Part shown: piece after piece, positions 1-5,374 of the stretch
Layout of the letters: each line of letters begins with the position of its first letter
Numbering within the stretch: position 1 is the first letter of the stretch
Source of the DNA: an uncultured Flavobacteriales bacterium
Lineage (GTDB): Bacteria; Bacteroidota; Bacteroidia; Flavobacteriales; Crocinitomicaceae
Direction of reading: 5' to 3'
NCBI GenBank assembly: GCA_946478775.1
Contig: CAMLDR010000246.1
Coordinates: 1 to 5,374, forward strand
Length of the DNA stretch: 5,374 bases
Made by a program: the position numbers and the translations under genes
Notes under the pieces: model-generated
What the model was told of the DNA's origin: nothing
The model's database searches: none
Seen by the model: the letters and a program-made list of their open reading frames with translations, nothing else

Positions 1-31
1 TCTCTCCACACACTACGCTCTTCCTTGATCT
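1..31 (+). other. Probable untrimmed sequencing adapter at contig end
   Basis: Aligned by eye with the 3' part of the Illumina TruSeq universal/read-1 adapter, these 31 bases match at 25 of 29 positions, with four mismatches and a two-base TT insertion. The block CGCTCTTCC is exact, and the adapter's terminal GATCT is exact and ends at position 31. The orientation is the one expected for adapter preceding an insert. The coding sequence of the minus-strand gene is convincing down to codon 32-34, and past that point the translation becomes a basic string unlike the repeat before it. The adapter sequence is recalled knowledge. That this is contamination is an inference, but a strong one. Confidence 0.85.
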
Positions 32-2062
32 ATGCGGTAGTGTTGGGTTTGCCAGGGTCAGGTCACAACCATTCCCCGGATCTGTTCCATCCGTGATTTC
101 CTGTCCGTTTGTTACACCGTCTCCGTCGCAATCTCCTGCCAGATCGGATAAAATATCCACATCTACGTAGAAATCTTCTACTTCACCATGAATAACCGGC
201 CCGAAGCTTCTTTCGTCGATTGCTGTCGTTGCAGGATTGTCCGTTAATGTTTCGGTAGTAATTCGGATCCGAGCATATTTGTTTCCGCAGGAAGTTGAAA
301 TACCATTCCAGTTCAGATTGGTTGTCTGCGCAGCAACCGCAGATGGAACCGAAGCAGTAAACAGTTCGCTTTCAGAGAAAACACCGTCATTGTTCCAGTC
401 GACCCACGCATAAATATTCGCATTGGTTCCTGAGTTATTTGTAAAAGTCAGTGTAGTGGAGAAATTCGGATTGACAGTGGTATGTGACAAAGGTGTTACT
501 AACCCGTCTTCATCCGCTCCATCACCGTTTGTACCTGAATTGTTTGCTCCTGGAGCTACGTTATTACTTAATCCGTTGTCCGGATCGGGTTGGCTTATTC
601 CCAAATAGATTTCATCGCCGCACATATAGTAATGCGCTGCCGGATTTCCATTTTCAAATGAAAACGGTGCATCTCCGGCATCATACGTACTGGAACCACA
701 GATTAATCCGACAGGTGTATTGGCACAGTCAAATGTAGCAACCGTGCTTGTTCCTGAAACGCCGTCACCCATTGATCCGTCTATCTTATGCCCCATGTAA
801 CAGTATCTTTCGGCACATAATTTCATAATAGCTGTAGTGTGCCCGCCGATCTCCACATAGGTTGCATGGTCTGTTCCGGGAATAAATCCGTTGGGAACTT
901 TTGGCAAAGGATGGTTACCGATTCCTCCGGGTACCCCGATCATTTCGTTGTTGTTGGAACCCCACGACCACAATTCTCCGTTCGAAAGAATAACTGAAAC
1001 AGAGGCATTCGGTGTGCCGGGTGAACCGTCATTATCATTAGCAGAAACGAAAATCACATCCGAAAGGTCTGCCGTATTGGTTGAATTCCTTACCGGAACC
1101 CATCCGTTTGAATTCGTTGTATTTCCTTGCCCGAGCTGTCCATTCCCGTTACTTCCCATTGCATAAAGCTTGTTATCCGCAGGGTTGATCGCATAATAGC
1201 TTGCCCTGTTGCTTGCATCGGTCCAGGTATTGTTCCCGAAATCAGCAGTCATGGCAATCATTACCGGAAGACCTGAGAACGGAGTAGTCATTGCTACTGC
1301 GCGATTGTATGTTGCTACTGCTGAGCCATCTCCGCGGTAACAGCGAACTCCCCAGGTATACCATTGACCGGTAGAAGTTACCGCGAATGCTCCGACAGGA
1401 GTGACGCGGATATCAACAACTCCCGTCAGGGCTGGGTTTCCTGTGATATCTCTGGTTACTCTTGACCAATAATTCTCGGCAGCTCCCGGAAATGTCCCTC
1501 CGTTTCCGTGTATGGCTTCATTTCGTCCGCTCACATATACTTCTCCCGAATGTGTGAGTAATACCAATGACCCCCAAGAAGCGATCATGTTCTTAATATC
1601 CGACGGAGCAATTCCAACGGGCATGGAAATTTGTGCAAACCCTGTGATGTTGTCTAATCCCGTTCCGATTGCCACGTTATTGGCTCCCCAGGAGTAAAGT
1701 CCGTCTGTTGAAAGTATGAATGCTTGTGTTGTTGTAGAAGACTGGGTTGCCAGTGTAGCAAATAAAGGCGCTCCGGTGTAATTGTAATGTTGTGCCGGAA
1801 CTCCTGCATTTGGTTCAATAACTACGGGCGTTAAATGCCTTGCTGCTGCGGAACCGTTGCCATTAGCAGTAGAACCCGCACCCCAGATCAGGAAAGTTCC
1901 GTCGGGGCGTGAAGCAATAGTTGTATGGAACCCGGATTGGATCTGATCGTAAGGCTGAAGCGGATTACAACCCGAAGATTGTGCCTGCGCCGTAGATAAA
2001 AAACCAATACCAATAATTGCAGCGCGCATTTTTGCACTCTTGAAAAGTAAGTTCTTTCTCAT
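1..2062 (-). CDS. Exported RCC1-like seven-bladed propeller with GEVED domain and calcium-type repeat (3' end missing)
   Basis: This is an exported surface or secreted protein of unknown substrate. The frame is open from ATG at 2062 to the left edge; genuine coding probably stops at 32 (677 residues) because bases 1-31 look like adapter. Residues 1-27 form a signal peptide: a basic start, the core AAIIGIGFLS, and a likely cut at AQA|Q. Residues 48-440 hold seven RCC1-like units, each with a short strand, a D/N/S-G turn and a WG or MG motif (WGAG 60, WGAN 125, VSGR 177, WGVR 237, MGSNGNGQLG 302, WGSN 367, MGHK 423). Seven is the RCC1 propeller number. Next come a DAGDAP motif (461-466) and an acidic GADEDG stretch (515-520). 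A GEVED domain follows (about 546-635; YAWVDWNNDG and GEVEDFYVDV). Then a thrombospondin-type-3-like repeat (644-667, DCDGDGVTNG). In Bacteroidota such proteins usually end in more repeats and a type IX sorting domain, which cannot be seen here. The start lies 2 bases after the upstream stop, so translational coupling is likely. Met12 (2029) is an alternative start that still leaves a signal peptide. Confidence 0.9.
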   Translation of the reverse strand, partial: MRKNLLFKSAKMRAAIIGIGFLSTAQAQSSGCNPLQPYDQIQSGFHTTIASRPDGTFLIWGAGSTANGNGSAAARHLTPVVIEPNAGVPAQHYNYTGAPLFATLATQSSTTTQAFILSTDGLYSWGANNVAIGTGLDNITGFAQISMPVGIAPSDIKNMIASWGSLVLLTHSGEVYVSGRNEAIHGNGGTFPGAAENYWSRVTRDITGNPALTGVVDIRVTPVGAFAVTSTGQWYTWGVRCYRGDGSAVATYNRAVAMTTPFSGLPVMIAMTADFGNNTWTDASNRASYYAINPADNKLYAMGSNGNGQLGQGNTTNSNGWVPVRNSTNTADLSDVIFVSANDNDGSPGTPNASVSVILSNGELWSWGSNNNEMIGVPGGIGNHPLPKVPNGFIPGTDHATYVEIGGHTTAIMKLCAERYCYMGHKIDGSMGDGVSGTSTVATFDCANTPVGLICGSSTYDAGDAPFSFENGNPAAHYYMCGDEIYLGISQPDPDNGLSNNVAPGANNSGTNGDGADEDGLVTPLSHTTVNPNFSTTLTFTNNSGTNANIYAWVDWNNDGVFSESELFTASVPSAVAAQTTNLNWNGISTSCGNKYARIRITTETLTDNPATTAIDERSFGPVIHGEVEDFYVDVDILSDLAGDCDGDGVTNGQEITDGTDPGNGCDLTLANPTLPHRSRKSVVCGE

Positions 2063-4819: not shown

Positions 4820-5374
4820 TTATTTTTCTTCTTCTTCGTCTTCTTCTTCATCGTCTTCCCATTCGTCCTCATCGTCGTAGTCTTCATCAGAATCTTCGTC
4901 GCTGTTTACCAGGTACTTACGGTAGTCTTCTTCGATTTCGTCTTCTTCGTTTCTTCCGAATAAGTCCAATTCTTCATCTGATAAATCATCCTCGTTCAAA
5001 AACAGGTTGTCTTTACCACTTTTGCGATAAGCTTCCATTTTTGGTTTCTTCGGAGCTTCTTTGCTTGCACCTCCGCCGGTACCTCGCACATCTTTTTCTT
5101 TTTTACGTTCCACCTTTGCAGGAGGAATGTCATCAAGACCTCCAAAAGCAGGTTTGATGCTGCGTGTGTCATCCGGTTTGTTGTAATCGGATTTCGTGTC
5201 GCTTACAGCATTCCGGTCATCCCTGGGACGATCACTTCTGAAAGCAGGTCTGTCACCTGAACGGTTATCCCCTCCTGATGGTTTGCTTCCAGAACCACGG
5301 TCGTCTGCTTTTTTAACAGCGATATTTCGTCCGTTGATTGCATAATTATCAAGCGCCTCAATCGCTTGATCAGC
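4820..5374 (-). CDS. RRM-type RNA-binding protein with acidic tail (5' end outside window)
   Basis: The C-terminal 184 residues of a gene that runs off the right edge. Residues 1-23 of the visible part (ADQAIEALDNYAINGRNIAV, then KKA) match the last helix and fourth strand of an RNA-recognition motif, where A-IEALN...INGR-I-V is typical. RRMs are about 80 residues, so roughly the first 60 residues or more are missing. After the domain comes a disordered linker (24-126), rich in R, D, K, S, G and P. The final 58 residues (127-184) are extremely acidic: 36 are D or E, ending WEDDEEEDEEEEK. A GTG at 5111-5113 is in frame but should not be taken as the start, because the frame with the RRM end continues upstream. 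The protein is probably cytoplasmic and binds single-stranded RNA. Small RRM proteins are common in Bacteroidota and are often expressed as single genes. The RRM call rests on a short fragment. The acidic tail might modulate RNA binding, but that is inference. Confidence 0.85.
   Translation of the reverse strand, partial: ADQAIEALDNYAINGRNIAVKKADDRGSGSKPSGGDNRSGDRPAFRSDRPRDDRNAVSDTKSDYNKPDDTRSIKPAFGGLDDIPPAKVERKKEKDVRGTGGGASKEAPKKPKMEAYRKSGKDNLFLNEDDLSDEELDLFGRNEEDEIEEDYRKYLVNSDEDSDEDYDDEDEWEDDEEEDEEEEK

Follow-up and report, generated by a model that had tools for sequence, protein, structure and literature searches.

A Contig End Probably Formed by a Degraded TruSeq Read-1 Adapter, and the False C-Terminus of a Truncated RCC1-Repeat Protein

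Gene Content of the Window

The window, by which we mean the whole stretch of 5,374 nucleotides that was analyzed, carries at its left end a minus-strand propeller gene that is broken off inside its first DCDGDG unit (table 1). The encoded protein has Pfam matches that pass the curated cut-offs for RCC1 repeats and GEVED, and matches that fall below them for an RCC1-like domain and TSP3_bac; the gliding-motility/T9SS-type C-terminal domain PF13585 has no Pfam match in it. Adjoining the propeller gene, at 2065–2727, lies a gene of 220 residues without a Pfam match, which keeps this neighborhood in all nine DNA-level relatives described below and is 64–81% identical in them. The right end of the window (4820–5374) also cuts a gene, of which the C-terminal protein part with a strongly acidic tail is present. 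At its start, this part resembles the last residues of an RNA-recognition motif; no Pfam match was found for this protein.

Table 1.— Features at the left end of the window and identity to the orthologs along it.
Positions	Strand	Feature	Basis or content	Window versus 7 orthologs	Orthologs inter se
1–31	+	Probable degraded TruSeq read-1 adapter 3′ end	25/29 identities, 2-base insertion at 25–26	45%	75%
2–31	−	Ten codons, RSRKSVVCGE, taken to be spurious on the truncated protein	Exact translation of the tip		
32–46	−	Codons PTLPH, unverified beside the junction	37% versus 80% among 7 orthologs	37%	80%
47–2062	−	Genuine gene part, N-terminal 672 residues	RCC1-type repeats, GEVED domain, TSP3-type repeat		
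47–61				55%	68%
62–90				79%	80%
91–130				87%	86%
131–190				83%	81%

Relatives of the Truncated Gene

At the DNA level, nine relatives of the gene were collected, seven from a scan of genome contigs and two full-length ones from 240 genomes of the family, 31 of which had any match. In all nine, the open frame runs past the window's end point and into further DCDGDG repeats. Eight of them close at 1768–1917 amino acids, counted from the matched start, with the common C-terminus ...LKGYVYIQR, and the ninth (L002) stops at 1469 residues, next to an undetermined residue. The length used for L001 is the 1916 residues from the matched start; it becomes 1957 when the count begins at the open frame's first Met. 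The order of the propeller gene, the 220-residue gene and a TPR/AraC-type regulator is likewise kept in 9/9 relatives. L001 (CP034120.1) is titled Glaciecola amylolytica, and has a Fluviicola-type ortholog and the same gene order; its genome (G001) is grouped with the Fluviicola sp. genome G003 in one family, and the organism name of L001 looks wrong.

When proteins were searched with a single full-length ortholog as the query, the best 120 of 428 matches included at least 13 full-length orthologous proteins (P0031–P0043, 1646–1989 amino acids), the 13 listed being 75–92% identical to window residues 40–666; a conspecific protein was not found among these best 120 of 428. No viral relative of the window protein was found. 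PF13585 is precomputed in all 13 of the full-length orthologs P0031–P0043; the window gene is truncated. The initial annotation had proposed comparison with a related genome as a check: the gene continues in 9/9 relatives, and a 24-base part of the tip, with up to 3 mismatches, is missing from the 240 family genomes. Judged by these relatives, some 1000 further residues very likely follow in the real protein, and the window protein would correspond to about the first third of the full-length protein plus 10 false residues.

An Adapter Match at the Left Tip

The TruSeq read-1 adapter and the other oligonucleotides were screened in their presumed standard form. Over the last 29 bases of this adapter, the 31-base tip agrees at 25 positions and disagrees at 4, and a 2-base insertion falls between CTCTTCC and GATCT; this reproduces the alignment given by the initial annotation. 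Its score of 18.5 was never reached by shuffled sequence: when the first 80 bases were dinucleotide-shuffled 2000 times the best score was 15, and 300 shuffles of the entire window gave at best 14. As a control on real DNA, none of 7580 overlapping 80-base stretches of the relatives on both strands attained it (best 13.0). A Gumbel estimate puts adapter resemblance of this grade at about 1e-6 per 80-base stretch, and the adapter identity of bases 1–31 is beyond chance. Among the 17 oligonucleotides screened at the left end, the runner-up, at 11.5, was an older Illumina oligonucleotide that shares its 3′ end with the adapter; none of the 17 scored above 9 at the right window end, which has no adapter match. 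When 3 mismatches were tolerated, none of the 240 family genomes contained a 24-base part of the tip, and the first 24 tip bases had no exact match in the viral contigs. Two parts of the TruSeq adapter, AGATCGGAAGAG and CGTCGTGTAGGGAAAGAGTGT, are printed in PMC11536531.

The frame stays open through the tip, as had been claimed, and the ten added residues are the exact minus-strand translation of the 31 bases. In the same frame, the clean adapter encodes RKSVV and then reaches the codon TAG, for which the window copy has TGT on our reading of the alignment. These results support the view that the ten terminal residues (678–687) are adapter-derived and not real, and the alignments suggest that residues 673–677 (PTLPH) are also without support.

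Orientation and Control Copies of the Adapter

The GATCT that closes at base 31 faces the insert, which is the orientation of adapter joined to insert; read on the minus strand, the insert comes first and would be followed by read-through adapter at 31..1. We infer that base 1 is the true contig end. The initial annotation had described this orientation as the expected one, and the same facing was seen in 127/128 exact control copies among the matches listed. These controls comprise at least 128 exact copies of the 22-base adapter end in at least 120 public viral contigs. Of the 128 listed, 103 lie at most 40 bases, and 23 more at most 250 bases, from the stored sequence's outward end; of the remaining two, one lies 306 bases from the end and one is reverse-facing. 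Adapter words near a viral contig end in L108 (at 14343) and L305 (at 4833) face the wrong way for a contig end.

When copies were selected on the outer 18 bases of the adapter (n = 124, near viral contig ends), the inner part was exact in 115. Four of the nine inexact inner parts keep an altered form that ends in GATCT (two carry a substitution, one a deletion and one, in a wrong-facing copy, an insertion), and the other five diverge from the adapter; the window's 2-base insertion is in none of these nine listed copies. For 70 copies with 11 outward bases among the matches listed, 61 were exact there and 9 inexact. None of the inspected viral-contig copies is as damaged as that of the window, these controls having been picked by long exact words, so that the frequency of badly damaged copies is not measurable from them. 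We also considered, and rejected, that the 2-base insertion marks an adapter variant that recurs: the scans gave at least 120 stretches in one case and 29 in the other, and enrichment at ends was absent. The insertion-bearing word gave 141 matches, 5 near the outward end and 4 near the other end, with locus ends not always being contig ends. One of the five outward-end matches (L245) has the window's 16 letters, with no adapter-like letters before them.

Where Homology Is Lost

Identity along the left end was profiled against the seven gap-free orthologs (table 1), the two of the nine with a length change in the linker being left out. The value for bases 32–46 was matched by 452/2000 shuffles and is not above chance. 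For bases 1–31, the ungapped ortholog similarity of 45% compares with 28% in shuffles and was reached by 12/2000. Homology had been expected to stop exactly at position 32, but it is lost already at about base 46, 15 bases inside the junction. At the protein level, P0035, the closest at the linker among the matches listed, shares CDL.LAN with the window and then diverges. Bases 1–31 are not part of the related genomes at that place (0/240 genomes; 45% versus 75%), though their similarity is above that of shuffles.

Bases 32–46 may be poor-quality insert, the linker of another repeat unit, or foreign. Compared with 167 repeat units, bases 32–61 reached at best 19/30, where the units' best mate elsewhere has a median of 24, and bases 32–46 reached at best 10/15 (median 13; shuffles 8.1, sd 1.1, max 11). 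Another repeat unit as the source of bases 1–31 was rejected, the best of the 167 units giving 17/31 (median 27; shuffles mean 13.9, max 19).

Origin of the Tip

We put a probability of about 0.9 on the left end being an assembled contig end, the last 31 bases of which are a damaged copy of the untrimmed Illumina TruSeq read-1 adapter. The observed part of this explanation is the adapter identity, its orientation, the loss of homology and the continuation of the gene in relatives; the match, orientation, position and homology loss agree in supporting the adapter interpretation made in the initial annotation. Short-read assembly tends to stop in runs of similar repeats, and the tip would sit at the point where such a run, of DCDGDG repeat units, opens in the gene. 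A short insert would have been read through into the adapter. With its 4 substitutions and 2 inserted bases relative to the clean adapter, the copy could easily slip past a trimmer, and assembly would then have carried the contig tip into it. As the frame is open through the adapter, a protein caller would add the 10 false residues and hide the truncation. Some observations speak against the adapter reading: for an adapter copy the tip has many changes (4 mismatches and a 2-base insertion), its insertion is in none of the nine inexact copies listed and the insertion-bearing word is not enriched at ends, homology is already gone at 32–46, where the insert should be genomic, and bases 1–31 keep an ungapped similarity to orthologs above that of shuffles.

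The last of these (12/2000) would fit a genuine genome sequence, namely a divergent linker of this species that is adapter-like by chance, as would the open frame and the CDL.LAN shared by P0035 immediately before the tip. Such a linker is exceedingly improbable, given the chance of about 1e-6 per 80-base stretch for the adapter resemblance; in addition, the DCDGDG motif that stands next to the junction place in 9/9 DNA-level orthologs is gone from the window, and the seven ortholog segments reach only 10–12/29 against the gapped adapter, compared with 25/29 for the window. A chimeric join at the tip, to another organism, a vector or a foldback, would account for bases 32–46 looking foreign at the orthologous position and for the imperfect inverted repeat 6–16/37–46. 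We regard it as very unlikely: inverted repeats of that quality occur at 56/744 other window places, a second adapter copy at 32–70 is equalled at 88/748 other window places, and bases 1–60 gave one chance-level match (bases 28–53, E 0.4) against 72,556 plasmid records and no match against 50,697 phage records. As to a foldback, which was likewise rejected, the repeat finder listed no repeat in 1–200, and the fold of 1–60 has a z of −1.64, with 12/200 shuffles as good.

The mismatches may stem from low-quality read ends, as the initial annotation suggested. The odd letters of the tip raise a variant that is compatible with the adapter reading, in which the consensus is a mosaic: the read-through would have been fused with the real continuation of the genome, or error correction would have pulled it towards that continuation, making the tip a letter-by-letter blend of adapter and genome produced by read error correction or consensus calling. 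Three of the four substituted columns have the orthologs' letter (in 7/7, 6/7 and 7/7 orthologs; the fourth in 3/7), and the 2-base insertion brings GGAA and TGTG into the genome's register. Adapter with random error (20,000 trials) reaches the ungapped ortholog similarity of the tip in 0.01% of trials when the insertion may fall anywhere, in 0.66% when it is fixed in place, and in 2.6% when the letters alone are random; with 11 back-translated proteins, the null reaches the similarity in 0–2 of 3000 trials, and in 35–56 of 3000 with the insertion in place. In a gapped test with nine orthologs, however, the tip's 4.44 is inside the adapter-plus-noise null (mean 2.25, sd 1.49, max 5.89; 60 trials), inside the shuffle null as well (mean 2.56, sd 1.77, max 7.0; 60 trials), and below the 10.3–16.9 found among the orthologs themselves. 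Moreover, one of the inserted letters fits no ortholog and the other 3/7, bases 32–46 should under a blend look genomic too and do not, and the test was conceived post hoc, once the alignment had been seen. We consider a blend unlikely; the six non-adapter letters give a hint of a lean to the genome in the ungapped tests, and the gapped test does not confirm it. If true, exact-word adapter screens would overlook such blends, and databases would be left with false protein ends that look plausible.

Comparison with Known Proteins and Artifacts

The window protein has its N-terminal RCC1-type repeats, GEVED and first DCDGDG in common with the Fluviicola-type large repeat protein (tandem-95 repeat protein, P0038, P0040 and others), and 9/13 full-length orthologs are 91–92% identical to it over residues 40–666. 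Whereas the Fluviicola-type relatives extend for about 1000 residues or more, the window protein is cut off and ends in residues that are probably adapter-derived. The relevance of the tip is limited to annotation, as a flag for masking: bases 1–31 (1–46 for safety) should be masked, the protein called partial, and residues 678–687 dropped from family models.

The tip is best explained as an ordinary artifact of a kind already described, and we see nothing biologically new in it. Adapter contamination of contig extremities in public microbial genome databases is described in PMC11536531; there the adapter sequence, direct or reverse-complemented, lies no more than tens of bases from a contig end, outward of the insert, and the window is alike in this. 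The screen given there uses the exact 12-base word AGATCGGAAGAG or its complement. In the window, the 2-base insertion interrupts that word, so that this copy would escape an exact 12-base screen and may serve as an example of how a short insertion lets an adapter copy through such a screen.
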